Part shown: positions 3,958-32,734 of the stretch, one piece after another
Numbering within the stretch: position 1 is the first letter of the stretch
Layout: every line of letters begins with the position of its first letter
IMG/VR virus record: IMGVR_UViG_3300042549_007837
Span: 1-33,180 of that record
From: a virus
Direction: 5' to 3' (one strand)
Length of the DNA: 33,180 nt
Notes under the pieces: model-generated
The model's database searches: none
Seen by the model: only the letters and a program-made list of their open reading frames with translations
What the model was told of the DNA's origin: nothing
Translations under genes and position numbers: made by a program

Positions 3958-5163
3958 TTATTCCGTAAGGCTTTTTCGGGGGTTATGGGTCACTGAGGGA
4001 TTTGCGCCCACATTTTCCGGGGGTGCATTTGGGGTGCATTTTTCGCGGACGGCAAACCACCGGACTCCCTCGTCTAGCGACTTGGCATCTTGGTAGGATT
4101 TCCGCGACTCGCTTTCTGAGTTGCCTGCCTCGGCGGCGGCCTTGGAGATCCCAACGACGGCGGCACGGTAGCTGATGAACGAGTGGCGCAGGGCGTTCCT
4201 CCTCCACCCACCAACGAGATGACCGAGCCGGGTGGTCTCGGCTTCTGTGCCGCCCTTGGGCGCTGTCGTTGGGGCGGCCGTGGCCCCGACTCTGCCTGAC
4301 GTTTGCCGGACGCCGTGTAGGGCATCCTCAAGCGCGGGCAGGATCGGGATGACCCGGCCTTGCCCGTTCTTATCAGTGGCAGGTCGCAGACGGATGATTT
4401 TTTCCCGCCAGTAGAAGTCTTCCCACATGAGCGGGGTTTTCTTGCTCTGCGGGCTGGGGCAAAGTTCCTCACTTCGTATCCCTGCGAAGGCGGCGCAGGC
4501 CAGCCATCCGCGGTGCTTGTCTGCGACGTTGGCGAGGAGGATTGCCAGTTCGGCGGGCGTGTAGGTGCTCGGCACACCGCGCACGATGATGGGGGCGTCG
4601 AGCCGCTCGGGGGCGGTCGGTTCGCCGTGGGGGAGGTGGCCCTGGCGGACGCACCAGCGGAAGAAGGTGATCCAGGCGTTGCGGCGGTTGGAGCGGGAGC
4701 GGGCGCTGCCGGGGAGCGGCGGCAGGTTGGCGGGGGTGAAGTCGCAGAGGGTGAGGTCTGGCAGGTGCTGGAGGTGGCGGGTGAGGGTGGCGACGTTGTG
4801 GGGGCTGTCGCCGGCGTTGGTGGTTTTGATAGCGAGGAACTCGGCGCGGGCCTCGTGGCAGGATTTCCGGGGGCGGGCCTTCCCGTGCCAGACGAGGAAC
4901 TCGTCGATGAGGGCGCATGACGGATCGGCTTCGATCATGCGCTGGCAGGCGGCGGCTTGTTGCGGGGTGAGTTCGGCAAGGTCGAGGCTGCCGCGCATGG
5001 TGGCCTTGCAGAGCGCGAGGGCGGCGGCCTTGGCCACGTCGAGAGATGCGCGGGTGACGGTCTGGCCGGCGTGCTTGAAGCGCCAGTAGTCGCGGCCGGA
5101 CGAGTGCGTCCAGGGGAAGACCGTGATGGTGACGGCGCGGTAACGGACGGTGACGGAGGACAT
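3958..5163 (-). CDS. int: Tyrosine recombinase (phage integrase)
   Basis: The protein has 401 residues from the ATG at 5163. An in-frame GTG at 5286 would overlap the small gene before it and adds a Pro/Arg-rich, unlikely N-terminus. The N-terminal half is an arm-binding/SAM-like region. The catalytic half has Arg about 230 (FAGIRSEEL), the beta-hairpin Lys region (TDKNGQGRVIPI), LRHSF at about 325-329 and the nucleophile Tyr about 357 (RKSYQ). The usual HxxRH and GH motifs appear here as NALRH and GN, so two catalytic positions are Asn. The arrangement GNS...Y...WFAV is one I associate with Verrucomicrobiota/Planctomycetota integrases. It lies next to the tRNA-derived attP. The gene starts 14 bases after the small ORF upstream and is probably co-transcribed with it and the RHH gene. 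Confidence 0.92.
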   Translation of the reverse strand: MSSVTVRYRAVTITVFPWTHSSGRDYWRFKHAGQTVTRASLDVAKAAALALCKATMRGSLDLAELTPQQAAACQRMIEADPSCALIDEFLVWHGKARPRKSCHEARAEFLAIKTTNAGDSPHNVATLTRHLQHLPDLTLCDFTPANLPPLPGSARSRSNRRNAWITFFRWCVRQGHLPHGEPTAPERLDAPIIVRGVPSTYTPAELAILLANVADKHRGWLACAAFAGIRSEELCPSPQSKKTPLMWEDFYWREKIIRLRPATDKNGQGRVIPILPALEDALHGVRQTSGRVGATAAPTTAPKGGTEAETTRLGHLVGGWRRNALRHSFISYRAAVVGISKAAAEAGNSESESRKSYQDAKSLDEGVRWFAVREKCTPNAPPENVGANPSVTHNPRKSLTE

Positions 5164-5177
5164 GGCGGGGGGGGCGG

Positions 5178-5312
5178 TCAGTTGAAACGGGAGTCGGCGT
5201 AGCGGGGGTGGAAGGGCAGGATGTTTTCTGGTAGGGGGGGGGGGGAATCCGTTAGTGCTAGGATTTCCGCCATTTCTTCTGGACACAACTGGCGGCTTGC
5301 CGCATCTGTCAT
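5178..5312 (-). CDS. Small protein of unknown function between RHH regulator and integrase
   Basis: A 44-residue frame (MTDAASRQLCPEEMAEILAL...) begins 8 bases after the stop of the RHH gene and ends 14 bases before the integrase ATG. This tight fit between two real genes is the main support. It has a short acidic helix (PEEMAEILALT) followed by a Pro-rich tail and no recognisable domain. A longer in-frame start at 5414 would overlap the RHH gene and is Arg/Pro-rich, so I prefer the internal ATG. It could be a small accessory factor for integration, but nothing in the sequence shows that. Confidence 0.5.
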   Translation of the reverse strand: MTDAASRQLCPEEMAEILALTDSPPPLPENILPFHPRYADSRFN

Positions 5313-11697: not shown

Positions 11698-11702
11698 CAT
11701 GA
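11466..11702 (+). CDS. Small Cys-rich (zinc-ribbon-like) protein overlapping the methyltransferase 3' end
   Basis: This 78-residue protein reads MERTRIVFAGELPDCECCGE, then PWCPIHLEHYGDCGCVGP: six Cys and two His that could hold one or two zinc ions. It then has a short beta segment (WELIEINGILYGI). I recall similar Cys-rich proteins beside phage DNA methylases. It overlaps the methyltransferase frame for about 230 bases in another register. It is ATGA-coupled to the helicase gene at 11699, which supports it as the real product of this stretch. An in-frame ATG at 11412 is an alternative start. Confidence 0.7.
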   Translation: MERTRIVFAGELPDCECCGEPWCPIHLEHYGDCGCVGPSNAEDDGWELIEINGILYGIRPLRAGGSINFDESIGEEIA

Positions 11703-13087
11703 CTGAGACCTTCACGGCATTCGACTACCAGCCCGCGATGGTGGACCATCTGCTCGACAACGACAGGGCCGCGCTGTTTGTCTCCCCTGGCAAGGGCAAG
11801 ACGGTGGTCACGCTCACCGCGCTCGACGCGCTCGCCACCTGCGGGATGCTTAAAGCGGCGCTCATCGTAGCACCGCTGCGGGTGTGCTCGATCACATGGC
11901 CGGCGCAGGTGGCGCGGTGGAGCCACACAAGCTGGATGCGAGTGGCGAACCTGCGGACGGCGGAGGGAATGCAGGCGTGGCTGGACGGCACCGCGGACAT
12001 CTATCTGATCAACAGCGAACTGCTGCCGAACCGGCTGCCGATGATGTTCCCGAAGCGGAAGTCATTCGTCTGCCCGGTGGACACGCTCGTCATTGACGAG
12101 CTATCACTGGCCAAGAACCACGCGAGCAAGCGGTTCAAGGCGCTCCACAAGCACCTGTCTGCGATCCCTCGGCGGTGGGGGCTGACCGGCACGCCGATCC
12201 CGAACAACTACCTCGACCTGTTCATGCAGGTGAAGATGCTCGATGACGGAAAGCGGCTGGGGAAAACCTTCTCTGACTATAAGAGCGATTGGTTCTACCC
12301 GGCGGACTACATGGGCTATAATTTCAAGCTCCAGGCGGGGGCGAAGGAGGAGATCGACCGCAGGCTGTCAGACCTCGCGCTGGTCATCGTCGGCGACGGG
12401 TCCGACCTGCCTGCCTCCTCGATCATCGACGTGGCGGTGGTGCTGCCGGCCGACGCCCGCAAGCAATACCGGACGCTGGAGAAGGAGATGCTCGCAGACA
12501 TCGCAGACGGCGAGGTGACTGCACCCAGCGCGGCGACGCTCTGCAACAAGCTGCTGCAACTCACAAGCGGCGCGGTCTATGACGAGGACCGCAAGGTGCT
12601 GCCGGTCCACGACGCGAAGCTCGACGCGCTGCGCGTGCTGCTCGCCCGCCACGCTAACGAGCCGGTGCTGGTGCTGTGCGCGTTCAAGCATGAGTCGGCC
12701 CGCATCCTGAAAGCCATCCCGCAAGCACGCATGTTTGACGAACGGCAGATGAACGAGTGGCAGGCTGGCGAGATCCCGGTGTGGGTGGCGGACCCGCGGT
12801 CGTTGTCGCACGGCATCGACGGGCTACAACGGTCATGCCGGATCGCCATCTGGACCAGCCTGACCTACTCGCACGAAACCTATGTCCAAACCAACGCCCG
12901 CTTGATCCGCACCGGCCAGACCGCCGAGACGATCATCTACCGGATCATCGCCCCTGGCACGATTGACGACGCGGTGGCCGAGGCACTCCGCGACAAGAGC
13001 GACACCCAGAGCGGGATGCTCCACGCCGTCCGCAACCTGCAACTGATGCGCGGCAAGAATCTCTCAGAACCAATAACAATACCATGA
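11699..13087 (+). CDS. SNF2-type DEAD/DEAH helicase/translocase
   Basis: This 462-residue protein carries superfamily 2 motifs in order: FDYQPAMVDHLL (Q-like), Walker A SPGKGKT (residues 29-35), DELS as Walker B (133-136), LTGTPIPNN (162-170), and motif VI in TNARLIRTGQT near residue 400. Compact SNF2-like proteins of about 450 residues are common in phage replication modules and move along double-stranded DNA. It lacks extra chromatin domains. A GAGGAG 8 bases before its ATG is one of the few good Shine-Dalgarno sites here, and it also overlaps the upstream stop by ATGA. Confidence 0.9.
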   Translation: MTETFTAFDYQPAMVDHLLDNDRAALFVSPGKGKTVVTLTALDALATCGMLKAALIVAPLRVCSITWPAQVARWSHTSWMRVANLRTAEGMQAWLDGTADIYLINSELLPNRLPMMFPKRKSFVCPVDTLVIDELSLAKNHASKRFKALHKHLSAIPRRWGLTGTPIPNNYLDLFMQVKMLDDGKRLGKTFSDYKSDWFYPADYMGYNFKLQAGAKEEIDRRLSDLALVIVGDGSDLPASSIIDVAVVLPADARKQYRTLEKEMLADIADGEVTAPSAATLCNKLLQLTSGAVYDEDRKVLPVHDAKLDALRVLLARHANEPVLVLCAFKHESARILKAIPQARMFDERQMNEWQAGEIPVWVADPRSLSHGIDGLQRSCRIAIWTSLTYSHETYVQTNARLIRTGQTAETIIYRIIAPGTIDDAVAEALRDKSDTQSGMLHAVRNLQLMRGKNLSEPITIP

Positions 13088-14899: not shown

Positions 14900-17140
14900 A
14901 TGACCATGACACATAAATCACCCAAGATTGGATTCTACGAGTCCGCCACGTCACCCGAACAAGAAGCAGTTTGCACGTTGGAAGACCTGATCGACGCGAT
15001 CAAGTCCGACGAGTTCGCAGCCAAGATTGCAAAGCTCCGCAGCACCCTCGCCGCTGGCGACGATGACGGCTACGCGGTCGCCAAGAAAGTCCTGCAAGCG
15101 GTCTCGATCTCCGGGGCAGTCAAAGACAACGGCCTGCGGGCGAAAGCGATGGAGGAAGGGCGCTTCACCCACTCAGGATTCCTGCAACTCGATTTCGACG
15201 CGGCGGACAATATTGGTTGGGAGGTGGAGGAGATCGTCCACATCCTCCAGGGTGAGTCGCGGATCGTGGCTGCATTCGTCAGCCCGTCCGGCCACGGCGT
15301 GAAAGGCATCGCCCGGATCGCTATCTGCGAGACCAAAGAAGAGCACGCGGCGTGTTTCGCGGCGGCTCGCAACCACTTCCTGCAATTCAACCTTGAGATC
15401 GACCGGGCGACGAAAGACCCGGTGCGACTGATGTTTGTCTCCCACGACCCGAAGGCATGGCTGGACCTCAAGCGCACCGCTGCGTTTGAACCCGAAGCGC
15501 CAAGCTCCCAAGACCTCCCATCTGGGAGTTCGCAGGCTCCCAAGAAGCCCAAGGGCAGCCTGATCCTCAAGGCGACCCACGGCAGCATACCGCTGCCGCC
15601 GCACGAGGGCATCCACACCTGGCTGATGGAGGCTGCGTGGTGGTGCCGGTTCAACGACCTGAGCGAGAGCGAGACGGTGGAGCGGCTGAAATCCTACGAC
15701 GGCAGCCTGCGCCGCGCCCTCCAACCGACCGAGGCGGTGGACGCTGCCAGACAGGTGTTCTCATCCGCGATGCCCGAGTCGTCTGCGGACTGGAAGATCA
15801 CCGAGCAAGTCACCGCACTCATCACCAAGCCGCCAGGGCAGTCAACGATGCAGAGCTTCGACCCGGAGGATGTTTTCTACGACGGGCCGGCCAGCAAGTA
15901 TCTCGTCCGCGTGGGCAATGCGTTCTTCACCTACTCGAAACTCAGCCCAATCGTAACAGGCATCGCCCGCCATCTGGCAGACCAATACACGGACGCCAAG
16001 GAGTTGATGCGGGCGGTGAAGGCGACGGTGGCGAACCGCGAGCTGGATGGAGGCGTGCAATGGAATGGTAATCTGGCAGGCCACAAGCAGGGACTGACAA
16101 CAGACAACGCCGGCCTGCCGATCCTCATCACGTCCGAGGCGAAGCCGCCGCAACCGGCAGACGGGGATTTCCCGATCATCACCGACCTGCTCTCACAAGC
16201 ATTCGCCAACCCGACCGCGATGGAGGTGTTCTTATCATGGCTCGCCGGGCGCTGGACGGCTGTCAACTCGCACACGCACATCCCGTCGCCGATGCTGGTG
16301 CTGGCCGGCGAAGTGAACTCCGGCAAGAGTTTGCTGGCGTGGATCGTCACCGAGATGCTGGGCGGCCGCGTGGCGAACCCCTACAAGGCATGGAGCGGCG
16401 ACATCCTTTGGAACGATGACTTGATCGGTTCCGAGATGCTTTTGGTCGATGACTGCTCGGCATCCACCGACATCCGCGCCAGGCGGGCGTTCGGGGCTGC
16501 CTTCAAGGAGGCGATGTATCCGCACGCCGTGCAACTCAGGAAGCGCCACACGTCGAGCGTGTCTGCGCGGCCGGTGTGGGCGGTCATGGTTTGCTGCAAC
16601 GACACGCCAGAAGCCCTGCAAATCATCCCGCCGCTCGATGCTGACATGTCAGACAAGATCATCCTGCTGCACGTCTCGCCAGTCACGCTGCCCATCGACA
16701 CGTCCACTCCTGCCGGGAAGCTCGCGCTGCAAGCGATGCTGCGCCTCGAACTGTCTGCGTTCGCTCAGTCGCTCAAAGAGTGGGTGGTGCCAGAAGAGCT
16801 TCGCGACACGCGCTCCGGCGTGCTTGCGTGGCGCGACCCCGAACTGGTCGATTCAGTGGATGCGAACAGCCCGGCGCGGCGCATCGAGCAACTCATCGAG
16901 ACGGCCGTCAGTCACCTGGGGATCTGGCACGACCTGCCACGGGAGTTCACGGCAATGGAGATCGAGAGCCGCCTGACCGACCAAGGCTCGCCAGTGCGCG
17001 ACCAAGCGAGGCAGATGTTCAACTGGCACGGAGCGTGTGGATCTGCGCTCAACCGACTGGCAGGCAAGGGCGGGCTGGTCAGCAAGGGCAGCTACGACGG
17101 CAACCGCAAGGTCTGGCGGTATCACATCGCGGCGGGCTGA
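14900..17140 (+). CDS. Replicative primase-helicase (BT4734/VirE-like N-terminus, D5-like ATPase)
   Basis: This protein has 746 residues. Residues about 10-190 resemble the BT4734/BF3469 (VirE N-terminal) domain, related to archaeo-eukaryotic-type primases (FLQLDFDAADNIG with acidic residues, FVSPSGHGVKGIARI, KDPVRLMFVSHDP). A Pro/Ser/Lys linker and a helical middle follow. The C-terminal part is a superfamily 3/D5-like ATPase with Walker A GEVNSGKS (about 470-478), acidic EMLLVDDCSA (about 514) and a polar sensor strand (PVWAVMVCCNDTP). Such proteins prime and unwind phage DNA. It closes the early operon; its 3' end overlaps the convergent regulator gene by 19 bases. AGGAGG at 14874 is about 20 bases from the ATG, probably too far to act. 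Confidence 0.85.
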   Translation: MTMTHKSPKIGFYESATSPEQEAVCTLEDLIDAIKSDEFAAKIAKLRSTLAAGDDDGYAVAKKVLQAVSISGAVKDNGLRAKAMEEGRFTHSGFLQLDFDAADNIGWEVEEIVHILQGESRIVAAFVSPSGHGVKGIARIAICETKEEHAACFAAARNHFLQFNLEIDRATKDPVRLMFVSHDPKAWLDLKRTAAFEPEAPSSQDLPSGSSQAPKKPKGSLILKATHGSIPLPPHEGIHTWLMEAAWWCRFNDLSESETVERLKSYDGSLRRALQPTEAVDAARQVFSSAMPESSADWKITEQVTALITKPPGQSTMQSFDPEDVFYDGPASKYLVRVGNAFFTYSKLSPIVTGIARHLADQYTDAKELMRAVKATVANRELDGGVQWNGNLAGHKQGLTTDNAGLPILITSEAKPPQPADGDFPIITDLLSQAFANPTAMEVFLSWLAGRWTAVNSHTHIPSPMLVLAGEVNSGKSLLAWIVTEMLGGRVANPYKAWSGDILWNDDLIGSEMLLVDDCSASTDIRARRAFGAAFKEAMYPHAVQLRKRHTSSVSARPVWAVMVCCNDTPEALQIIPPLDADMSDKIILLHVSPVTLPIDTSTPAGKLALQAMLRLELSAFAQSLKEWVVPEELRDTRSGVLAWRDPELVDSVDANSPARRIEQLIETAVSHLGIWHDLPREFTAMEIESRLTDQGSPVRDQARQMFNWHGACGSALNRLAGKGGLVSKGSYDGNRKVWRYHIAAG

Positions 17141-17400
17141 CGCTCCGGCCGTGGCACCACGGTGTCGAGGGGGAGGAGGGACATCGCGTTAAGGGCGAAA
17201 GCAGGGGGAATTTGACCTGCCTCCCACCCTTCCACCGTCCGGTGACTCACGCCACAAATAGCGCCGAGAGCGGTGGTCGAAAGGCGCAGCCGCTTGCGGA
17301 GGAGCTTGATTCCCTTGGGATACTTCATGAGTTTGCCTTCCGGGTCGAGAATGACGGGCATCCCGAAGGCGCTGGCTTCGTGGTGGAGTGTGATTTGCAT
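17122..17400 (-). CDS. XRE-type HTH regulator of the leftward cassette
   Basis: In this 92-residue protein, residues about 30-70 form an HTH (KLLRKRLRLSTTALGAICGV, SHRTVEGWEAGQIPP, ALNAMSLL), as in XRE-like regulators. The N-terminal 28 residues (HHEASAFGMPVILDPEGKLM) are extra. Its own promoter carries a perfect inverted repeat at 17412-17431, and near copies of that site lie in the promoter of the leftward operon at 20.9 kb. The simplest reading is that this protein represses both. It has no Shine-Dalgarno sequence, and the transcript would be nearly leaderless. It could also act as an activator. Confidence 0.75.
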   Translation of the reverse strand: MQITLHHEASAFGMPVILDPEGKLMKYPKGIKLLRKRLRLSTTALGAICGVSHRTVEGWEAGQIPPAFALNAMSLLPLDTVVPRPERQPAAM

Positions 17401-17470
17401 AGCGCCGAGAACTTACGCCCGCGAGCGTAAGGAGTCAAGAAAACATTAGCGCCGAATGATTAGCGCCGAG
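17401..17470 (-). promoter_or_regulatory. Promoter and operator of the XRE regulator
   Basis: On the minus strand there is TTGACT (-35), a 17-base spacer and TAAGTT (-10), about 10 bases before the ATG at 17400. The spacer holds a perfect inverted repeat, CTTACGC-CCGCGA-GCGTAAG (17412-17431), so a bound protein would block polymerase. Three copies of the box TAGCGCCGA (starting at 17400, 17447 and 17461 on the + strand) flank it, one touching the start codon. The box positions are seen directly; function is inferred. Confidence 0.6.
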
Positions 17471-17706
17471 TCGGAGGGCGGGGCGTCGGGCGGGCGGGGG
17501 CGCGGTGGGCCTGGCCGGTGGCGGATCGGGTGCGGTGGGGGTCGGCTGGGGGTGCGGCGGTCGAGGCGGTCGGGGTCGGCTGGGGTCGGGGCCGGTCGGT
17601 CTGTCTGTCTGTCTGCTGCTCCGGCTGGGGCGGCTGGGGCGGCTGGTCGATCTCCGGCCGGTGCTGGTCTGCTGGTCTGCTGGTCTGCCGCCCCTGGGGC
17701 CGGACG
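17471..17706. other. GC-rich low-complexity spacer with minisatellites, no gene recognised
   Basis: This spacer of very high G+C lies between the regulator promoter and the operon terminator. It holds short tandem repeats: TCTG x4 (17600-17615), GGCTGGGGC x2 plus a partial copy (from 17623), and GCTGGTCT x3 (17663-17686). Open frames on both strands are only Pro/Ala/Arg- or Gly-rich low-complexity runs and do not look coding. I see no convincing RNA gene. Slippage during replication could explain it. Confidence 0.6.
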
Positions 17707-17741
17707 CAAAAAAGCCCGGCGCGCTGGGTAGCGGCCGGGCT
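17707..17741 (-). terminator. Intrinsic terminator of the leftward operon
   Basis: On the minus strand, AGCCCGGC (17734-17741) pairs with GCCGGGCT (17713-17720) around a 13-base loop, followed directly by a T-run of six (17708-17713). This is a textbook Rho-independent terminator. It lies 20 bases after the last gene of the leftward cassette (stop at 17762), which marks the end of that operon. Confidence 0.9.
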
Positions 17742-17761
17742 GGGGGTGGGTGGGGGGTGGA

Positions 17762-17923
17762 TTAGATTTTCGAGGGTGTGGAACCTGCGTCGATCGCGTC
17801 CTGGTCCTCCTGGGTCCAAATGTCCTCGAAATCTTCGGTGAACGAGTAGATCGTTTTCCCGTTTTCGTCGGTGGTGGAGAAATAAACGGTTCCGGCTGCG
17901 TTGGTGTGTGTTGTCGTTGTCAT
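17762..17923 (-). CDS. Small acidic protein (53 aa), last gene of the leftward operon
   Basis: The frame begins MTTTTHTNAAGTVYFSTTDE and continues NGKTIYSFTEDFEDIWTQED. A short beta hairpin is followed by an acidic, Trp-containing tail. The leader on the minus strand ends in CTCAAAAAAAC, matching the A-rich leaders of the other genes in this operon. It lies between the 57-residue membrane peptide gene and the terminator, so it is the last gene of the transcript. It is too short for routine gene calling. Function unknown. Confidence 0.55.
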   Translation of the reverse strand: MTTTTHTNAAGTVYFSTTDENGKTIYSFTEDFEDIWTQEDQDAIDAGSTPSKI

Positions 17924-17967
17924 GTTTTTTTGAGGTTGTGGCGAGGGGTCGAACCTCGCCGGGTGGG

Positions 17968-18141
17968 TTAGGCGGTGATGGTGGTGTAAATCGCAAGCGC
18001 GGAGACGAGGACCGCGACGAGCGCGGCGAGCGCCTGAGCTGCGCGGGCGTTGCCGTGCGCTGGCCTGCGGCGGCGGTTGAGCGTCGAGATACTAAGCCCG
18101 GCGCGGTGCCGGGTGTCGAGGATGTAGGTTTGACGAGTCAT
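17968..18141 (-). CDS. Small membrane protein (57 aa)
   Basis: A basic N-terminus (RRRRPAHGNARAAQ) is followed by a hydrophobic helix (ALAALVAVLVSALAIYTTIT) reaching the C-terminus: a single-span protein with its basic end probably in the cytoplasm. The start follows a run of A on the minus strand (CCACAAAAAAAAATG), as in the neighbouring genes. The stop is 44 bases before the next ATG. It could anchor the cassette's products to the membrane, but that is a guess. Confidence 0.5.
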   Translation of the reverse strand: MTRQTYILDTRHRAGLSISTLNRRRRPAHGNARAAQALAALVAVLVSALAIYTTITA

Positions 18142-18181
18142 TTTTTTTTGTGGTTGGGTGGTTGGGTGGGTGGGTGGTGGG

Positions 18182-18532
18182 TCAATAGTCTTCGGGCGTC
18201 ATGATGCAGGTGGAGGCGCGGCGGCCGTCCTCGTCGGCGGCGTCGGTGATGATCCAGATTTTTTCTTCGCCGAGCTGGTAAACCGAAAAGATCCGGCTGC
18301 CATCGAGGAGGGCGAAATCGTTGAGTTCCCAGTCGGACATTTCGCCGGGGTCGGCATCGCGGCCGGTGTCGGCATCGCGGCCGGTGTCGCCCCAGTCGCC
18401 GCGATGGTGCCGGGCGAGGAATGGCACGAGTTCGGCCGGGTCCGCCACGAGGGCGAGGGCGTCGGGTGTGGCTACTGTCTGCCCGAGCCGGAAAAGCGGG
18501 GCGGTGCGGGTGGTGGTGGTGGTGGTTTGCAT
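18182..18532 (-). CDS. Conserved plasmid/phage-related protein (116 aa)
   Basis: I start it at the ATG at 18532. The frame runs open upstream, but that part is Arg-rich and follows the A-rich leader. After a Thr-rich start (QTTTTTTRTA), the family pattern follows: LFRLGQTVATPDALALVADP, FLARHHRGDWGD, then SRIFSVYQLGEEKIWIITDA and a final CIMTPEDY. I recall this pattern from 'plasmid-related proteins' found near anti-restriction genes on mobile elements; its function is unknown. Between GDTG and the next strand, two copies of an 18-bp unit (18351-18386) encode a doubled DTGRDA. Confidence 0.7.
   Translation of the reverse strand: MQTTTTTTRTAPLFRLGQTVATPDALALVADPAELVPFLARHHRGDWGDTGRDADTGRDADPGEMSDWELNDFALLDGSRIFSVYQLGEEKIWIITDAADEDGRRASTCIMTPEDY
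18351..18386 (-). repeat. 18-bp tandem duplication inside the plasmid-related protein gene
   Basis: Two perfect, adjacent copies of TCGGCATCGCGGCCGGTG (18351-18368 and 18369-18386) encode a doubled six-residue acidic segment (DTGRDA on the minus strand). They lie in a predicted loop right after GDWGD. The length is a multiple of three, so the frame is kept; it looks like a recent slippage event. Confidence 0.85.
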
Positions 18533-18600
18533 TTTGTTTGTGGTGCGGGTTGTTTGCGTCCGCGACCGGTTGCCCGGTTTCGTCCCCCGCCGGGGACTCG

Positions 18601-19440
18601 TCAGGCGGTCTCGATGGTCATGCCGTTGTCTGCGGCCCAGCGTGTCACGGCGCGCCATGAGTCCGCCGGGGTGGCGTCGTCGAGGTTGCTAGCTAGCGGC
18701 AGGATGAGCGCGCCGGGTGGAAATAGCGCGGTGTCCTCCTCTGCGGCCCTGGTGTATCCATAACCTTTCCGGGCGGCTTTCGCCCAGCCGTCGGCGTCGT
18801 TGGCCTCAATCTGGCGGAAATATAGGCGGCGGTAAGTGCTGGGGCTGAGTGCTCCGGCGAGGCGGGAAAGCTCCAGCGAATCCTCGGCGCGCTTGAGTTT
18901 CACAATCACCGTCTGCGAGTGATTCCCCGCGCCGGTGGAGAAATGCCGGAATAGTTCGCAGCGGATGACGCCGCCCGCTTCGAGGGCGTCAATTAGGCCA
19001 CAAATCGCGGTCGCCTGGTTGGCGATGCTCGAAGCGTCGGTGTAGGCTCCCGAGCTGCCCGGCATGATGAGCGGCAAAACCGATTTGCCTTTGCGCTCGC
19101 CGGGCGCTTTGCAGACCATCGAGCACGGGTCACCGGCGGCGGCGCGGGCGGCGTCTGCATACATCCCCGCCACGTCGAAGCGGCGGGCGCGGCCTCGGGC
19201 GGTCGGGCGGGGCATCGCGGCGCGGGCTGTCTGGAGCGCGGCCAGTCCGGCCGGCCATCCATGGCGCGCAAACCCGAGCGCTTGGGCGAAACTCTCCGCG
19301 CCGGTGAACTCGGTGCGCTCCTGGCTGTCTGTCTGCGTGCGTTGCTCGTATTTCGCCCGCCTCCATGCGGCGGAGGCTTTGAGGGCGGCGGCGTGCGCGG
19401 CGAACGCGCCGAGGGTCTCGAATTTGTGGATTGCGTGCAT
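18601..19440 (-). CDS. DUF7192-like protein, vWA-like partner of the MoxR/CobS ATPase
   Basis: This 279-residue protein has an N-terminal helix (AIHKFETLGAFAAHAAALKA), then ESFAQALGFARHGWPAGLAA, the SF-A-GW-G pattern I associate with DUF7192-type phage proteins. The middle (SVLPLIMPGSSGAYTDASSI, then ICGLIDALEAGGVIRCELF) resembles a vWA-like fold with a degenerate metal site: no clear DxSxS. The end (LSRLAGALSPSTYRRLYFRQ) is basic. It starts 6 bases after the AAA+ gene. MoxR-type ATPases usually work with a vWA partner to remodel or insert cofactors into other proteins, so a two-part complex is likely. Substrate unknown. Confidence 0.65.
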   Translation of the reverse strand: MHAIHKFETLGAFAAHAAALKASAAWRRAKYEQRTQTDSQERTEFTGAESFAQALGFARHGWPAGLAALQTARAAMPRPTARGRARRFDVAGMYADAARAAAGDPCSMVCKAPGERKGKSVLPLIMPGSSGAYTDASSIANQATAICGLIDALEAGGVIRCELFRHFSTGAGNHSQTVIVKLKRAEDSLELSRLAGALSPSTYRRLYFRQIEANDADGWAKAARKGYGYTRAAEEDTALFPPGALILPLASNLDDATPADSWRAVTRWAADNGMTIETA

Positions 19441-19446
19441 GGCGTT

Positions 19447-20634
19447 TTAGCGGTTGAGGGTGTGGCTGAGTGAGTGGAGCGCGCCGCTGGTCTCAGAGTC
19501 GAGGCGGGCGCGGCTGTCTGCGTCCATCCCCTCAAGCGAGAGGTTGAGGGCATCGCAGAGCGGGATTTCCGCCCGTAGTGCCTTACATGTCCGGTAGGTA
19601 GCGCGGGGGCTGATCACGTGCCGGATGGAGTGGCGGCGAGCTGCGGCGCGAATCTCTTGGACGTAATAGGCGACGGCCTCGCCGTGCTGGTGGAGCGCGC
19701 CGGCAATCAGGTTTTCAAGCTGCGGGTCGTAGTCCATCGCGATTCTGGCGAACCGGTCGAGGGTCGCGGCGTCGAGTTGGTTTCGCCCGACATACTCCCG
19801 GCTTGCTCCCCCGCCCCATGTATTGGCTGAGGCGATGCAGCGGAAATTCGGGTGGCGTTTCACGCTGCCATCGGGGAAATCAAATTTCCCATTTGAAAGC
19901 GCGGCGTTAAATGCCAGTAGGGCGGCCGGGTCGCTGGCGTCGATCTCGTCGAAGAGGAAGAGCCCGCCGTGCTCGAATGCTTCCCGAAATGCGGTGCGGA
20001 CGGTGCGGCCCTGGGCGTCCACAAAGCCGGTTAGCTTATATTCACTCCCGACCGCGCCGGTAAAATAAAACGGCGTGTCTAGTGCCTCCGCGCATTGCTC
20101 GGCAATCGTCGTTTTTCCTGCACCGGCCGGACCGGCGAGAAAAACGGAATCAAAGGCGACGGCGGCGAGGATGGCCGGAAAAGCGCAATGCCTCAGCCCG
20201 GCCGGAAGCTCCCGGCGTGTCTGCGGTGCGCCTTCAATGTAGATGGTTGCCTGCGGCGATTGCGGGGCGTGCTCGGCGATCAGTTCCACGATCCGCGCCT
20301 CGTCGAGCGGGGCGGCCTGCGGGGCGGCCGGTTGGAGCGTGGCAATCAGCGCGGCGAGAGCGGCGGCGGTGTCGGCGCTGGCTGGGGCGGCGATTGTCTG
20401 CCGTGTCTGCGGTGCCGGTGCTGGTGCCTGCGGCGCTGTCTGGCCGTCGAGGATGGCGTTGAGTGCCTCGTTGCTCTCGTCGTTGTAAGCGACGGAGAGC
20501 TGCGAAACGGTCAAATTTCCGATTTGCGAGTAGGTCGCCCCTTTCGAGGTCAGCCATTTGCGGACAAGCCCGCGGTTGGTCGAGTCGATGCTGGCATATC
20601 CGCGGGGCGGCAATGTTTCTGTCATGGTTTCCAT
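19447..20634 (-). CDS. MoxR/CobS-like AAA+ ATPase
   Basis: This protein has 395 residues from the ATG at 20634; an ATG at 20625 is also possible. The N-terminal 50 residues form a small helical domain (LVRKWLTSKGATYSQIGNLT) like the N-terminal part of CobS-type proteins, and an Ala/Pro-rich linker follows. The AAA+ core has Walker A GPAGAGKT (168-175), Walker B LFLFDEID (225-232), sensor 1 ASANTWGGG (about 269-275) and LDAATLDRFARI (about 287-298) with the finger Arg. MoxR/CobS ATPases act as chaperones that load metal or remodel partner proteins. No cobalamin or other metal-insertion genes are nearby, so the partner is probably the next gene's product. Confidence 0.88.
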   Translation of the reverse strand: METMTETLPPRGYASIDSTNRGLVRKWLTSKGATYSQIGNLTVSQLSVAYNDESNEALNAILDGQTAPQAPAPAPQTRQTIAAPASADTAAALAALIATLQPAAPQAAPLDEARIVELIAEHAPQSPQATIYIEGAPQTRRELPAGLRHCAFPAILAAVAFDSVFLAGPAGAGKTTIAEQCAEALDTPFYFTGAVGSEYKLTGFVDAQGRTVRTAFREAFEHGGLFLFDEIDASDPAALLAFNAALSNGKFDFPDGSVKRHPNFRCIASANTWGGGASREYVGRNQLDAATLDRFARIAMDYDPQLENLIAGALHQHGEAVAYYVQEIRAAARRHSIRHVISPRATYRTCKALRAEIPLCDALNLSLEGMDADSRARLDSETSGALHSLSHTLNR

Positions 20635-20661
20635 TTTTTTGTGGTGTTGGTGGTGGTTGGT

Positions 20662-20904
20662 TTAGCGGGAGAGGGTCGAGAGGGCGCGGCGCTCGGTCGG
20701 CGTCAAATCGCGGGCCTGGAGCGTGCAGCGGTAGCCGTCGCCGGCCGGGTGGTCGCTCATGCGGGCGGCGACGAATGCGGAGCGGGTGGCGAGTCCGCAG
20801 AAAACGCGGAGGGTGCGGGGCGCTCCTGGGCGGCAGCCGAACGGATAGGCGGCGGCATAAAATCGGGCGGCGGTGGGGGCGGTGGTGCGGGGCGTGTTGG
20901 ACAT
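20662..20904 (-). CDS. Hypothetical protein (80 aa), first gene of the leftward operon
   Basis: I start it at the ATG at 20904. An in-frame TTG at 20913 is possible, but the ATG lies just 6 bases after the -10 box, so the transcript would be leaderless or nearly so. The protein is basic (AARFYAAAYPFGCRPGAPRT, FCGLATRSAFVAARMSDHPA) and has a short helical end (LTPTERRALSTLS). No known domain. It lies 27 bases before the AAA+ gene. Confidence 0.55.
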   Translation of the reverse strand: MSNTPRTTAPTAARFYAAAYPFGCRPGAPRTLRVFCGLATRSAFVAARMSDHPAGDGYRCTLQARDLTPTERRALSTLSR

Positions 20905-20963
20905 GGCCGACAATTACGGGCGGGAACGTGATTTCTCAAGCTATTTTACGGGCGGGAAAGTAA
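20905..20963 (-). promoter_or_regulatory. Promoter with two operators for the MoxR-like cassette
   Basis: On the minus strand, TTGAGA (-35), a 17-base spacer and TAATTG (-10) precede the ATG at 20904 by 6 bases. The 18-base box at 20914-20931 (TTACGGGCGGGAACGTGA) lies in the spacer and -10, and a second at 20946-20963 (TTACGGGCGGGAAAGTAA) sits upstream of the -35. Both match the inverted repeat in the promoter of the XRE gene at 17413-17430. Their starts are 32 bases apart, three helical turns. Two repressor dimers could bind cooperatively. Confidence 0.65.
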
Positions 20964-21301
20964 ACCGCGCCGCTTGCGTCTGCACGTCTGCGAGTTGTGG
21001 CGGAATAAATTAGATTCATCGCCAGACAGAAAACCGAAAAAGCGGTAAACTGACTCCGCAAGACCCCGCATTTCTAACGCTTTGCGGTGTAGTGCGGAGT
21101 GTGTTTTTACCTCTGAGGTTTTTAAATAGTATATATAAGGGGATTTCGGGAGGGACGCCGCAAAACGCGCAAGGTAAAGTTCAGAAACAGACTCCGCACT
21201 CCGCATGTTCAGGCGAACAGTCCGGCTGTTCAAGGCGACGCCGTGCGGCCGCGCACGATTTCCCGCTTGTCTGTCGGTCTGTCGGTGGGTATCGTCCAGG
21301 C
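20964..21301. other. Intergenic region upstream of terS: candidate pac/late-control site
   Basis: No gene is recognised in this 338-base region. It holds a palindromic box array at 21053-21100: ACTCCGCA-AG-ACCCCGCA, a 12-base gap, then TGCGGTGT-AG-TGCGGAGT. An AT-rich segment follows (about 21117-21140, TTTTTAAATAG, then TATATA at 21130) that could hold a promoter (weak TTTACC -35, 18-base spacer). Two more overlapping boxes are at 21191-21205. The layout resembles packaging-initiation (pac) regions, which often lie beside terS. It could equally be a late-promoter activator site. Confidence 0.5.
21053..21100. repeat. Inverted array of 8-base boxes
   Basis: Two direct boxes, ACTCCGCA (21053-21060) and ACCCCGCA (21063-21070), spaced 10 bases apart, face two inverted ones, TGCGGTGT (21083-21090) and TGCGGAGT (21093-21100), also 10 apart. 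Left and right arms match at 15 of 18 positions when one is reverse-complemented. Further direct copies lie at 21191-21205 and 21857-21864. The 10-base step puts the boxes on one DNA face. Confidence 0.8.
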
Positions 21302-21769
21302 ATGGCCGGGTTGACATCGAAACAAAGAGCTTTTGCGAAAGGAGTGGCAAGCGGGTTACCACCAGCCAGCGCAGCCCGTGCGGCTGGGTATGCTGAGAAA
21401 AGCCCGCACGCGCTCCAGGTGCAGGCATCCCGACTCACAAAACATCCCGAGGTCCAGGCGGCCGCGCACGCCGAGCGTGAAAAACTCATTTCCCAGACAG
21501 CGCACCGGGCGCTTGCCTGCCTCGCGTCGATCATCGACAACGAGGCCGCGCAGCCGGCCGCCAGGGTCCAGGCGTCCCGGTGGGTGCTCGAAGCAGCCGG
21601 CCACGGGCTGGAAGCCGCCAAACTCCTGCACCGGATCGGCGAGGGAGACGAGCGGGCCGTGTCGCAGCTCTCAGCGGCGGACCTCGAGGCGCTGGTCGTC
21701 ATGGCCGCAGACAAGGTGCGTTTCGAGCGCGGCCAGGTGATCGACGCCGAGACCGGCGAAACGGTCTAA
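21302..21769 (+). CDS. terS: Terminase small subunit
   Basis: In this 155-residue protein, the N-terminal HTH (LTSKQRAFAKGVASGLPPAS, ARAAGYAEKSPHALQVQASR) followed by LTKHPEVQAAAHAEREKL is the Terminase_2-type pattern. A helical middle gives oligomerisation. The acidic C-terminal part (DLEALVVMAADKVRFERGQV) would bind the large subunit. It recognises phage DNA for packaging. The start is the ATG at 21302; upstream in-frame codons give an unlike N-terminus. The large subunit is 5 kb further on, after the fibre and lysis genes. Box arrays flank this gene. Confidence 0.85.
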   Translation: MAGLTSKQRAFAKGVASGLPPASAARAAGYAEKSPHALQVQASRLTKHPEVQAAAHAEREKLISQTAHRALACLASIIDNEAAQPAARVQASRWVLEAAGHGLEAAKLLHRIGEGDERAVSQLSAADLEALVVMAADKVRFERGQVIDAETGETV

Positions 21770-26734: not shown

Positions 26735-28324
26735 ATGGCCGCCAAGCGCAAGGAACTGACGCCGCTGGAGCAGGCAGAATTGCAGCTCAAGGCGACCCAT
26801 CGGCTGCTTGCGGCGAAGAAGGCGCATGACTCGCTGATTGAGTTCGTGCGGTTGATGATGCCCGACCCGACCGACCCGGACGACGTGCAGCTTTCCCGCT
26901 ATGTGGTCGCCAAGCACCACCAGGTGCTCGCAGCGGCGTTGGAGGAGGTGGACAAGGGGAACATGCCCCGGCTCATCATCACGCTGCCACCCCGGCACGG
27001 GAAGAGCCAGATCGCCTCCAAGGCATTTCCCGCATGGTTCATGGGGCGCGACCCTTACCGCCAGATGATCGTGGCCTCCTACTCCGCGACGATGGCGGAG
27101 GACTTTGGCCGCGAGGTGCGGGCCTACATGCAGACACCGGCCTACCAGCAGGTGTTCCCGTCGTGCTCGCTCCGCAAGGGCGGCGCGGCCTCAGACCGGG
27201 TGCAGACCGAGCAGGGCGGGCTGGGCGTGTTTGTCGGTGCCGGCGGTGCGCTCACCGGACGTGGCGCGGACGTGCTCCTCATCGACGATCCGGTGAAGGA
27301 CCGCGAGGACGCCGATAGTTCGACCATGCGCGAGAAGCTGTGGAGTTGGTTCACCGACGTTGCGATGACCCGTCTGATGGGCGGCATGGGGCGGGTGGTC
27401 ATCATCATGACCCGCTGGCACGAGGATGACCTGGTGGGCCGCCTGACCGACCCTGGCAACCAGCACTACAACGCGGAGGAGGCGAAGCAGTGGAAGATCA
27501 TCTCCTTCCCGGCGCTGGCCGAGGACGACGACATCATGGGCCGCGAGAAGGACGAGCCTCTCTGGCCGGAGCGGATCACCAAGGAATTTCTCAACTCCCA
27601 GCGACGGCTGAATCCTCGGGGATTCTCCGCGCTCTACCAAGGGCGGCCGGCCCCGGAGGACGGTGACTTTTTCAAGCGCGAGTGGATGACCACCTACCAA
27701 CCCAACGAGTTGCCGCGCAACCTCCGCTACTATTGCGCGAGCGACCACGCCGTCTCGGTGGCGCAGGACCGCGACCCCACCGTGCTCCTGCCGGTGGGCG
27801 TGGACGACCAAGGGACGATCTGGATCTTGCCGGATGTCTGGTGGCGCAGGGCGCAGACAGACGACGTAGTGGACGCCATGCTCGACATGATGGCCCGCCA
27901 CAAGCCGCTGATCTGGTGGGCGGAGCGCGGCCACATCTCCAAGTCCATTGCGCCGTTCCTGCGGAAGCGGATGCAGGAGGAGAGCGTCTATTGCGCCATC
28001 GACGAGGTGGTTCCGGTGAAAGACAAGCAGACGCGGGCGCAGTCGATCCGTGGGCGGATGAGCATGGGCAAGGTGCGCTTCCCCGGCTTCGCGCCGTGGT
28101 GGGAGGCGGCACGGGCGCAGATGCTCTCGTTCCCGGCCGGCAAGCACGACGACTTCGTGGACACCATCGCCTACATCGGGATGGGGCTGGGGCGGATGAG
28201 TGCGGCCACCGCACCGAGCCGCAAGAAAGCCACCGCCCCGACTGGCAGCATCGGCTGGGTAAAAGCCCGCTCGAAGGCGCAAGCCCGCCAGGTCGCCAAC
28301 GTCAAGGCGGCTGCGGGATTCTGA
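26735..28324 (+). CDS. terL: Terminase large subunit
   Basis: This 529-residue protein has the packaging ATPase motifs: Walker A TLPPRHGKS (residues 83-91) and Walker B VLLIDDPVKD (about 179-188). MTRWHEDDLVGRL, an Arg/His-containing motif typical of terminases, is also present. The C-terminal nuclease part has an acidic start (YCASDHAVS) and the closing KHDDFVDTIAY (about 470-480), with the Asp pair that binds metal. It cuts and pumps DNA into the head, docking on the portal. It lies directly upstream of the portal gene, as usual, but is separated from terS by the fibre block. Confidence 0.95.
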   Translation: MAAKRKELTPLEQAELQLKATHRLLAAKKAHDSLIEFVRLMMPDPTDPDDVQLSRYVVAKHHQVLAAALEEVDKGNMPRLIITLPPRHGKSQIASKAFPAWFMGRDPYRQMIVASYSATMAEDFGREVRAYMQTPAYQQVFPSCSLRKGGAASDRVQTEQGGLGVFVGAGGALTGRGADVLLIDDPVKDREDADSSTMREKLWSWFTDVAMTRLMGGMGRVVIIMTRWHEDDLVGRLTDPGNQHYNAEEAKQWKIISFPALAEDDDIMGREKDEPLWPERITKEFLNSQRRLNPRGFSALYQGRPAPEDGDFFKREWMTTYQPNELPRNLRYYCASDHAVSVAQDRDPTVLLPVGVDDQGTIWILPDVWWRRAQTDDVVDAMLDMMARHKPLIWWAERGHISKSIAPFLRKRMQEESVYCAIDEVVPVKDKQTRAQSIRGRMSMGKVRFPGFAPWWEAARAQMLSFPAGKHDDFVDTIAYIGMGLGRMSAATAPSRKKATAPTGSIGWVKARSKAQARQVANVKAAAGF

Positions 28325-28370: not shown

Positions 28371-30521
28371 ATGACCTACCCACCGACAACCGAGCCACTC
28401 GAAGCCGAAGCAACCTCAGCAGAGCCGGTGAAGAGCGGGATGACCCGTGAGACGCCGACGCCGGACCCGTCGCGGGCCGCGCTGGTCAAGCACTGGCAGG
28501 GGAAGGTGGCCAACGCGAAGAAGCATTGGGAGAAGGATTTCAAGCGGATGAAGGAGGACCAGGCGTTCCTCGGCGGGGCGCAGTGGGACGGCCGGGAAGA
28601 CCCGGACAAATACACCGCCAACATCATCCAGCGGCACATCAACCAGCGGGTCGCCGCGCTCTACGCGAAGAACCCGAAGGTGGTGGTGCGGAAGCGCCGG
28701 ACGATGGATTTCACGCAGTGGGACGGCACCACCGACGCCTTGCAAAACATCCAGATGGCCATGCAGATGGCGCAGCAGACCGGGATGGGTATGCCGCCGG
28801 AGATGATGGGTTTGATCCAGGACATCGCCCAGGGCGTGCAGCGGCGATCGATGCTCGAAAAGGTCTCGAAAACGCTGGAAATCATTTACGATTACACGCT
28901 CAACCAGCAGATCCCGCCGTTCAAGGTGCAGATGAAGCAGTTGGTCCGCCGTGTCTGCACGACGGGCGTCGGCTACGTCAAGCTCGGGTTCAACCGCCTG
29001 CTGGAGCGCAGCCCCGACGACGTGGAGCGGATCAACGGCCTGACCGAGCAAATCTCGGTGATGGAGCGGATTCTCGCCGACGTGGCGGACGACAAGCTCG
29101 ATGAGGGCCGGGCGGAGGTGGAGCAACTGCGGTTGCTGCTCGCCGACTACCAGCAGCGCGAGCAGCAAGTCTCCCGCGAGGGGCTTTGCTTTGACTTCCC
29201 GCCGGCCACCAGCGTCATTGTGGACCCGGCGTGCCGCCACCTGCGGACCTTCACCGGAGCGCGGTGGATCGCGGAGGAATACATCCTCCCCGTGGATGAG
29301 ATCAAAGAGATTTACGCCATCGACCTGTCCACGGCGGGCAGCGCGACGAGCTATGACCTCGATTCCAAGAGCGGCATTCCCGGCTTGAAAGAGCGGATCG
29401 CGGCGGCGGTGACTGATGACGGTGCTGCCCCGGCCAAGTCGAAGGACGGCAAGTGCGTGTGGGTGATCTGGGACAAGACGACCGGACAGACCTGCACGGT
29501 CTGTGAAGGCTACGCCGACTTCCTGGTCGAACCGAAGCAGCCGGACGTGTTCATCGAGCGGTTTTGGCCGGTGTTCCCGCTGATTTTCAACGAGACCGAG
29601 AACGAGGACAGCATCTACCCGCGCAGCGACGTGCATCTCCTCAAGCCGCTCCAGAAGGAATACAACCGCTGCCGCGAGGGGTTGCGCCAGCACCGGATCG
29701 CCAACCGCCCGAAGACCGCGGTCGCCGCCGGCCAACTCGACGAGGAGGACATCGAGAAGCTCCGCAACCACCCGGCCAACGCGGTCATCACGCTCAACGC
29801 GCTGCCGCCCAACGGCGACGTGTCGAAGCTGATCCAGCCGATCCGGATGCCCGCTATTGACTCCGCGCTCTACGACACCTCGCCGGTGTATGAGGATTTG
29901 CTGCGGGTGGTCGGGCAGTCGGACGCCAGCATTGGCTCGGCGCAAAGCGGCGTGACCGCCACCGGCGACAGCATCGCCGAGCAGAACCGGACCGTGGCCA
30001 TCGCCTCCAACGTCGATGACCTCGACGACATGCTCAACGAGCTTTCCCGCGCCGCCGGGCAGGCGTTCTTCCTCGAAATGTCGCAGGAAACGGTGATGAA
30101 GATCGCCGGACCCGGGGCTGTCTGGCCATCGCTCTCGCCGCAGGACGTGGCGGACGAACTGCTCCTCGAAGTGGAGGCCGGATCAAGCGGCCGCCCGAAC
30201 CGCGCCACCGAGATCGCCAATATCGAGCGGCTCGCCCCGCTCCTCCTCCAGATGCCAGGCGTCAAGCCGGACTGGCTGGTCAAGCAGCTCATCATGCGGC
30301 TGGACGACCGGCTGGACCCGACAGACGCGATTGCCGCCGGCCTGCCAAGCATCATCACTCAGAACGCGATGGCCAAGGTGGCACAAGCCACCGGCGGCAC
30401 CCCGGAAGAGCAAGGCGGGAATGGCGCGGACAACGAGGCGAAAGCCCCCGGCGAAGGCCAGTCCCCATCCGGCCCAACCGCCCCGCAGCCAGCCGGACCG
30501 ACCGGGATGATGGGCGGGTGA
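28371..30521 (+). CDS. Portal protein (P22-type, large)
   Basis: The length of 716 residues fits large podovirus-type portals (P22 gp1 is about 725). Recognisable parts are: WEKDFKRMKEDQAFLGGAQW near the start, TANIIQRHINQRVAALYAKN, a wing region, and a long C-terminal part with SIAEQNRTVAIASNVDDLDD and helices for the tunnel and barrel. The C-terminal tail is Gly/Pro-rich. The portal forms the dodecamer through which DNA enters and leaves. The leader carries CAGACAGACAGACA at 28338-28351. Confidence 0.85.
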   Translation: MTYPPTTEPLEAEATSAEPVKSGMTRETPTPDPSRAALVKHWQGKVANAKKHWEKDFKRMKEDQAFLGGAQWDGREDPDKYTANIIQRHINQRVAALYAKNPKVVVRKRRTMDFTQWDGTTDALQNIQMAMQMAQQTGMGMPPEMMGLIQDIAQGVQRRSMLEKVSKTLEIIYDYTLNQQIPPFKVQMKQLVRRVCTTGVGYVKLGFNRLLERSPDDVERINGLTEQISVMERILADVADDKLDEGRAEVEQLRLLLADYQQREQQVSREGLCFDFPPATSVIVDPACRHLRTFTGARWIAEEYILPVDEIKEIYAIDLSTAGSATSYDLDSKSGIPGLKERIAAAVTDDGAAPAKSKDGKCVWVIWDKTTGQTCTVCEGYADFLVEPKQPDVFIERFWPVFPLIFNETENEDSIYPRSDVHLLKPLQKEYNRCREGLRQHRIANRPKTAVAAGQLDEEDIEKLRNHPANAVITLNALPPNGDVSKLIQPIRMPAIDSALYDTSPVYEDLLRVVGQSDASIGSAQSGVTATGDSIAEQNRTVAIASNVDDLDDMLNELSRAAGQAFFLEMSQETVMKIAGPGAVWPSLSPQDVADELLLEVEAGSSGRPNRATEIANIERLAPLLLQMPGVKPDWLVKQLIMRLDDRLDPTDAIAAGLPSIITQNAMAKVAQATGGTPEEQGGNGADNEAKAPGEGQSPSGPTAPQPAGPTGMMGG

Positions 30522-31654: not shown

Positions 31655-32734
31655 ATGGCATTCAGCAACGTCAGCGGCCTCACTGCCGCGCAACTCGAAA
31701 CCATCGCCTCGGCCGCCCTCGACTACTACGTCAAGGGTGATGCCTTCGACCAAACCATCCAAGACAAGCCTTTGCTTTCCGCTTTGCGCGGCAAGCAAAA
31801 GACCTTCGCCGGTGGCAAGGAAAAAATCAGTGTTCCAGTCGTCGGCGAGTATCTCAACGCCGACTCGAACTTCTTCAAGGGCTTCAACGGCACCGACTCG
31901 GTGACGTTCCAGAACCCGTCCTACCTCAAGCGCGCCGCTTACGGCTACTTTGAAATCCACGCGGGCATCACCGTGTCGTTCTCGGAGCTGAAAGCTGACG
32001 GCATCACCATCAACGACAGCGCGTTCGGCGAGAAGACCTCCCAGGTTGCCGGCCGCGAGCTGACCGCCCTTACCTCCCTACTGGATCACAAGCTCCAGTC
32101 GATGAGCGAAGGTTGGTCGCGTGAGATGAACGAGATGCTGTGGCGCGACGGCACGCAGGACGCCAAAGTCCCTGCGGGCATTCTCGCCTACATCACCGAC
32201 ACGGTGGCCACCGGCACTGTCGGCGGCATCAACCGTGCGACGAGCACCTGGTGGAGAAGCCGCCCGTTGGTCACTACGACCGCCGGATCGGACGCCCTCA
32301 CCACCGCTCTCCGCAAGGAAGTGCGCCAGTTGTCCCGCTACGGTGGCAAGCCGAACTTGATCCTTTGCGGATCAAAGTTCCTCGACGCCCTCGAAGCGGA
32401 GGTCGCCGCCAAGTCGCAGTATTCCAACACCGGAGTGGCCGGCACCCGTAACATCGCCAGCCCATCGGTGACGATCAACGGGATCGGCACCTTCGTCTAT
32501 GACCCGACGATGGACGACTTGCAGACCATCGTCGGCGGCGCAATCGACTACTCGAAGCGTTGCTATTTCATCGACACGGATGCTCTCTGCCTCTATGTCA
32601 TGGAAGGCGAGGACAACAAGATCCACGCACCGGCGCGGCCCGAGGACAAATACGCCCTCTACCGCTCGATGACCTGGACCGGCGGCACCGTCGCCAAGCG
32701 CCTGAACTCCTGCGGGGTTCACGCCATCGCCTAA
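31655..32734 (+). CDS. Major capsid protein (HK97-fold type)
   Basis: In this 359-residue protein, the order portal-scaffold-capsid and the content support the call: N-terminal helical arm (LTAAQLETIASAALDYYVKG), then KISVPVVGEYLNADSNFFKG, a long spine region (LTSLLDHKLQSMSEGWSREM), and a C-terminal A-domain with ENPLILCGS-like (GGKPNLILCGSKFLDALEAE) and VTINGIGTFVYDPTMDD. It is not preceded by a protease, which fits a scaffold-dependent capsid. A terminator-like hairpin follows. Confidence 0.85.
   Translation: MAFSNVSGLTAAQLETIASAALDYYVKGDAFDQTIQDKPLLSALRGKQKTFAGGKEKISVPVVGEYLNADSNFFKGFNGTDSVTFQNPSYLKRAAYGYFEIHAGITVSFSELKADGITINDSAFGEKTSQVAGRELTALTSLLDHKLQSMSEGWSREMNEMLWRDGTQDAKVPAGILAYITDTVATGTVGGINRATSTWWRSRPLVTTTAGSDALTTALRKEVRQLSRYGGKPNLILCGSKFLDALEAEVAAKSQYSNTGVAGTRNIASPSVTINGIGTFVYDPTMDDLQTIVGGAIDYSKRCYFIDTDALCLYVMEGEDNKIHAPARPEDKYALYRSMTWTGGTVAKRLNSCGVHAIA

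Follow-up and report, generated by a model that had tools for sequence, protein, structure and literature searches.

A MoxR-type ATPase and a DUF7192 partner with a predicted vWA fold form a gene block with its own regulator in a tailed phage

Introduction

What does a tailed phage gain from a block of genes that runs against both of its flanking operons and appears to carry its own switch? Such a block occurs in IMG/VR virus record IMGVR_UViG_3300042549_007837, a tailed-phage record whose whole stretch of 33,180 bases was analysed here and is called the window. The block (17122-20963, minus strand, as are all of its genes) lies between a primase/helicase-like gene and the genes for terminase and is oriented against both flanking operons. 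It contains a six-gene operon with an ATPase (P0006) and a DUF7192 protein (P0005), together with a gene for a helix-turn-helix (HTH) protein (P0001). An earlier reading of the sequence, referred to below as the original prediction, had described it as a self-contained, self-regulated cassette. We propose, with a probability of roughly 0.6 for the explanation as a whole, that these genes specify a separately switched MoxR-type machine for remodelling a complex of the host.

Results

Predicted folds of two neighbouring genes match the ring and adaptor of one machine

P0006 (19447-20634) is a 395-residue protein that matched AAA_5 (2e-12) and PHROG 249 (6e-54), and has Walker A, Walker B, sensor 1, arginine finger and sensor 2 elements, with motifs GPAGAGKT at 168, LFLFDE at 225, ASANT at 268, LDRF at 292 and SPR at 342. 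Its AlphaFold2 model (predicted local distance difference test score, pLDDT, 83.7) showed a small hairpin inserted on helix 2 ahead of Walker B, its short strands lying around residues 204 and 211, and was closest to CbbQ2 (Z 21.4), NorQ (Z 18-21, top 20.8) and another CbbQ (19.6), other structures scoring about 16 or below. Family matches, motifs and fold place P0006 among the MoxR-type AAA+ ATPases, in the CbbQ/NorQ group, in line with the MoxR/CobS-like ATPase that had been predicted. By analogy with this group, it may form a hexameric ring that is stimulated by a vWA partner.

The gene directly downstream encodes P0005 (18601-19440), a 279-residue DUF7192 protein (PF23822, 8e-26; PHROG 1909, 1e-26). 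DUF7192 is not named as a vWA family in Pfam and its profile returned nothing when run against PDB sequences; its relatives come from structure only. In a Foldseek search with the AlphaFold2 model of P0005 (pLDDT 86.5; predicted template modelling score 0.81), the NorD vWA domain supplied matches 1 and 2 (E 5e-4 and 8e-4). The first nine rows of the VIA comparison were Rea1-MIDAS, NorD and MDN1-MIDAS (Z 6.8-8.1), followed by other vWA domains, and among the BFVD viral models phage CobT/vWA proteins ranked next after DUF7192 itself. The modelled fold of P0005 is thus that of a vWA domain, nearest to NorD and Rea1, which agrees with the vWA-like partner of the original prediction. Since the predicted folds of P0006 and P0005 each match the corresponding subunit, the two genes lead to a single known machine, a MoxR ring working with a vWA adaptor, and it is a strong point that ring and adaptor are indicated independently by two neighbouring genes.

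P0005 is best described as a compact vWA-like adaptor whose metal site is degenerate. The DxSxS motif of the metal ion-dependent adhesion site (MIDAS) is not intact; P-G-S-S-G stands at residues 127-131, with Pro127 at the Asp position, and in DUF7192 homologues this position is Asp in 17/78 and Asn in 32/78. Because the metal-site Asp has been lost, P0005 is not a standard CobT, a possibility that the original prediction had named as a check on its own claim. One of the most conserved stretches of DUF7192 (residues about 86-112) directly precedes the first vWA strand and is a candidate for the finger that NorD inserts into the ring pore; remodelling by NorD depends on that finger (PMC9976466, PMC13036017).

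Solved relatives include CobS, and PHROG 249 is named for porphyrin biosynthesis, which raises a different account of the pair: that it acts as CobS-CobT with a host CobN in inserting cobalt (or another metal), giving more cobalamin for nucleotide synthesis, along the lines of the cobST hijack proposed in tailed viruses (PMC8651126). However, the CobS equivalog model TIGR01650 gave P0006 30.1 bits against a cut-off of 558.55, the partner has neither the length of CobT nor its intact MIDAS, and the PHROG name may reflect generic CobS similarity. In addition, neither CobN nor another cofactor gene was found among the large window open reading frames (ORFs) scanned, in a record that may be a fragment, which is consistent with the absence of a metal-cofactor gene noted before. 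Metal insertion is thus a very improbable function for this pair and belongs with the least-supported readings.

Close relatives keep the block and its order

All seven minus-strand ORFs were confirmed at the coordinates of the original prediction. In two close relatives (L002 and L003/L007), P0007-P0006-P0005-P0004-P0003 and P0001 are found in identical order and strand, and in L004, on an 81-kb contig, the ATPase, DUF7192 and P0004 genes adjoin the terminase and are divergent from it. The ratio of nonsynonymous to synonymous substitution rates (dN/dS) was 0.09-0.46 across relatives for P0001 and P0003-P0007. Because six of the seven show conservation at the protein level and share their order and strand, the block is more than a run of chance ORFs. 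The exception is P0002 (17762-17923), a 53-residue ORF without known family, last in the operon, whose slot holds a different, unrelated small sequence in the window, L002 and L003. Both close relatives have other genes in place of this ORF.

The remaining small proteins of the operon are P0007 (20662-20904; 80 residues), which is the first gene, belongs to no known family and shows dN/dS 0.24-0.26 across relatives; P0004 (18182-18532; 116 residues), of a 'GDWG...TTILLPEEY' family also present in plasmids and other phages; and P0003 (17968-18141; 57 residues; dN/dS 0.15-0.28), with one likely C-terminal hydrophobic transmembrane helix as read from its sequence. The P0004 family is carried by 18 plasmids and recurs downstream of the ATPase-DUF7192 pair in other phages. 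The predicted plasmid-related protein and small membrane protein can thus be matched to P0004 and P0003, respectively. None of P0002, P0003, P0004 and P0007 matched a family in protein-family and phage-family (PHROG) profile searches. The operon gene starts at 17923, 18141, 18532 and 20634 directly follow an A-run that has a C-rich leader (CAAAAAAATG), with no clear Shine-Dalgarno sequence.

The block has a guanine-cytosine content (about 65-67%) similar to that of the remaining window, so that nothing flags it as a recent arrival. We rejected a recent insertion on account of this similar composition and of the stable synteny in relatives, L004 keeping the core; the block does not interrupt the phage in that sense.

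Three palindromes and a terminator set the block apart

P0001 (17122-17400) is a 92-residue XRE-type HTH protein and putative autorepressor (HTH_31, 5.5e-5; PHROG 7950 repressor, 7.8e-6) that is 95-98% identical in relatives, with dN/dS 0.12-0.22. A candidate operator, O1, is a palindrome (TTACGCCCGCGAGCGTAA, 17413-17430) just before the start codon of the HTH gene, and its arms are kept in both relatives. Two more candidates precede the operon, O2 (TTACGGGCGGGAACGTGA, 20914-20931) and O3 (TTACGGGCGGGAAAGTAA, 20946-20963), with a spacing of 32 bases, about three turns of the helix. The pattern TTACG-N8-MGTRA occurs at three places only in the 33-kb window, one before the HTH gene and two before the operon, against 0.07 expected, a figure that overstates the case because the pattern was derived from the same sequence. 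The form TYAC-N10-GTRA likewise has no matches in the window besides these three. A fairer test is provided by L003, where TYAC-N10-GTRA was found at exactly the three corresponding places and nowhere else in 12.5 kb, and where the two operon sites have other central bases than in the window while the arms TYAC/GTRA persist. The same three palindrome sites are present in L002 with slightly looser arms. A half-site, CGSSCGTRA, was also considered as the operator and rejected, as it showed no enrichment and the palindrome with TYAC/GTRA arms was enriched instead. The three-site pattern fits one dedicated repressor, and judging from sequence P0001 would repress both its own gene and the operon.

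The operon ends in an intrinsic terminator (17707-17741, minus strand; minimum free energy -24.5, z -3.6), which confirms by folding the one that had been predicted; 1/200 shuffles folded equally well, and in L003 the stem is kept with a changed loop. As the HTH gene lies beyond this terminator, it forms a separate transcription unit. This corrects the original prediction of one unit with its own regulator, of which the regulator and terminator are present. With that correction, the description as self-contained and self-regulated stands, the close relatives having kept the clustering, the terminator and the operators; self-regulation in particular is well supported because the same three palindrome sites are present in both L002 and L003.

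Upstream of the HTH gene are two tandem TCGGCGCTA(ATCAT) units (17447-17469, minus strand), 14-base repeats of which both relatives have three units; TCGGCGCTA occurs 4 times in the window against 0.26 expected. These repeats may serve as additional binding sites or as iterons of an origin. A sigma-70 promoter scan found none, and the host's promoter type may differ; a TTGAGA-17-TAATTG pair at 20911-20939 was spotted by eye and is not counted as evidence.

The pair is widespread in phages and occurs alone in chromosomes

A DUF7192 profile search of genome contigs retrieved no relatives, and an ATPase profile search retrieved them. Among 90 distinct ATPase loci, some of which were fetched via DUF7192 (L033-L110 were fetched via the ATPase alone), a DUF7192 gene was directly downstream on the same strand in 77 and overlapping in 7, the contig ended in 5 and DUF7192 was absent in 1, i.e., about 84 of 85 testable loci have the pair. 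It is present in Kayvirus GH15, Mycobacterium JoeDirt and Rhizobium P106B, and in virulent Herelleviridae. In GH15 (ORF047/046) and JoeDirt (gp131/gp130), members of the same two families are adjacent, but within ordinary same-strand gene runs and with no dedicated HTH switch seen. JoeDirt has a second DUF7192 gene, gp123 (4680-5522 in L011), with no annotated ATPase beside it. In Rhizobium Rigallicvirus phages (P106B_25-20, X2_24), ATPase and DUF7192 form an island opposite in strand to the surrounding structural genes, as in the window, but this island lies between tail and head genes and two small genes separate ATPase from DUF7192. A tblastn search of PLSDB plasmids with the window's P0005 found no DUF7192, and the main text of the Kayvirus and Listeria phage omics papers carries no report on the pair.

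An SprT-like protease with an HExxH motif adjoins 15/55 ATPase clusters, and an SprT-like HExxH protein of about 200 residues stands beside the ATPase in 30 of the 77 loci with the pair. It was not found in the window, where the sole HExxH found, in the primase ORF, was judged coincidental.

Bare two-gene ATPase-DUF7192 units were found at nine loci in bacterial chromosomes, where their neighbours, assigned by eye from sequence, were apparent dnaN and recA, htpG, smpB and pfl, alaS, and cytochrome oxidase genes. DUF7192 is rare in chromosomes (3/395 Bacteroidota; 16/193 genomes of one Bacilli order). On the ATPase tree the chromosomal rows require at least 6 label changes, and therefore point to repeated exchange between phages and chromosomes.

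This distribution bears on the suggestion, made in the original prediction, that the block is a prophage moron expressed in the lysogen against other phages or host defences. Its own HTH switch, operators and terminator, its orientation against the lytic genes, the variable small-gene slot at the operon end and an integrase-like gene in the phage would all suit a moron, as would the opposite-strand island of Rigallicvirus. However, the pair is also carried by the strictly virulent Herelleviridae and by chromosomes, which a moron leaves unexplained, and PADLOC returned no defence family except a partial match of P0006 to IetA (24 bits), which was rejected as P-loop similarity. We consider a moron improbable, and a defence function, like metal insertion, among the readings with least support.

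In 22/55 ATPase clusters a divergent terminase gene is found within 5 kb upstream, and in 2/55 one on the same strand, an association that a chaperone of virion assembly or packaging, acting on terminase, portal or another structural protein, would explain. Such a role has been proposed for jumbo-phage MoxR-vWA pairs and for Acidianus two-tailed virus (ATV) (PMC7824862, PMC7911831), and ATV ORF892 appeared low in the P0005 fold search. On the other hand, the operon opposes the late genes, with a regulator and a terminator of its own, the chromosomal pairs occur without structural genes, and in the phiM5 record, which flags a particle-proteome protein, both the ATPase and the DUF7192 genes are unflagged. 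Assembly is thus unlikely, though of the alternatives it is the one to be taken most seriously.

Other features of the window

The window also encodes an SNF2-type helicase (11699-13087), the primase/helicase-like gene (14900-17140), a large terminase (26735-28324), a portal (28371-30521) and a capsid-like protein (31655-32734). The integrase-like gene (3958-5286) is a weak match and lends support to the temperate phage that had been proposed. The small-terminase ORF as listed (21092-21769) is too long, relatives starting at codon 71 (about 21302), and the gene is mosaic, the window differing from L002/L003, which agree with each other. Between operon and small terminase lie about 400 noncoding bases (20905-21301) that are roughly 90% conserved, more than the terminase gene itself (69% vs L002), with ACTCCGCA motifs clustered in both orientations. 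This region is a candidate packaging site or two-way promoter. An Rfam scan matched no RNA family.

Discussion

Of the known systems, NorQ-NorD, the MoxR AAA+ ATPase and vWA adaptor of nitric oxide reductase maturation, is that whose subunits the two window proteins match best or nearly best, and DUF7192 shares the conserved insert before the first vWA strand. It differs in having neither the N-terminal domain of NorD nor the MIDAS Asp, in the absence of cNOR genes and in its phage setting. The ATPase fold is likewise similar to that of the rubisco activase CbbQ-CbbO (Z 21.4), but there is no rubisco here and the window partner is much smaller, without a canonical MIDAS. Phage CobS-CobT pairs, as in cyanophages and Microcystis phage Mae-Yong1326-1, similarly have a MoxR-type ATPase followed by a vWA-fold partner. 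The large terminase of Mae-Yong1326-1 is the closest of any named phage to that of the window (51%), and its CobS shares 31% identity with P0006 over 168 residues. Its CobT is a single chain of 644 residues with an HExxH motif, an acidic linker and a vWA domain with intact DMSDSM, compared with the 279 residues and degenerate site of the window's DUF7192 protein. Because that CobT carries all three parts in one chain, DUF7192 systems look like CobT modules that were split and reduced, although the direction of change is inferred. The jumbo-phage chaperone pair (PMC7824862) also combines a MoxR ATPase and a vWA partner with a metallopeptidase, which is fused there and is a separate SprT-like protein or absent in DUF7192 loci, being absent in the window.

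Together, these likenesses suggest that the likely function of the block is ATP-driven remodelling of a protein complex, probably one of the host. P0006 would assemble a hexameric AAA+ ring capped by the vWA body of P0005, whose insert (residues about 86-112) would enter the ring pore. ATP hydrolysis may then twist or pull the adaptor, so that the bound protein complex is forced open, as in NorQ-NorD and CbbQ-CbbO. Since the metal-site Asp is gone, the target would be held by another surface of P0005 or by the small partners, probably not via a bound Mg ion. P0001 would act at O1 to repress its own gene and at O2 and O3 to repress the operon, whose expression would then be separate from that of the replication and late operons. 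A host protein complex, remodelled to the phage's advantage, would be the most likely target. Such a target is favoured by the separate regulation from the late genes, by the occurrence in virulent phages and by the bare chromosomal units; as the chromosomal pairs stand beside apparent housekeeping genes, it need not be part of the virion.

Several points weigh against this proposal. Taken alone, the fold match of the P0005 model is marginal (Z about 8, Foldseek E 5e-4). NorD requires its MIDAS for activity, MIDAS mutants keeping NorQ binding and losing activity on the target (PMC9976466, PMC13036017), and P0005 lacks the Asp. A literature search found no biochemical data on any DUF7192 protein. 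The step to a host target draws on genomic context only, and the divergent terminase in 22/55 clusters fits a packaging or assembly target equally.

The gene pair occurs in hundreds of phage records, Kayvirus phages included, and giving DUF7192 the part of vWA adaptor to a MoxR ring of phages provides a structural hypothesis for it. It also calls for caution, in that these ATPases should not be counted as cobalamin auxiliary metabolic genes. The three-site palindrome renders the regulation directly testable, and the bare chromosomal pairs offer a tractable route to the substrate. More tentatively, DUF7192 systems may be a separate MoxR-vWA class that no longer binds substrate at the metal site and whose protease, fused in at least one phage CobT, was split off; in phages its task would be the remodelling of a conserved complex of the host, and bacteria may have kept chromosomal copies several times for a cellular task.

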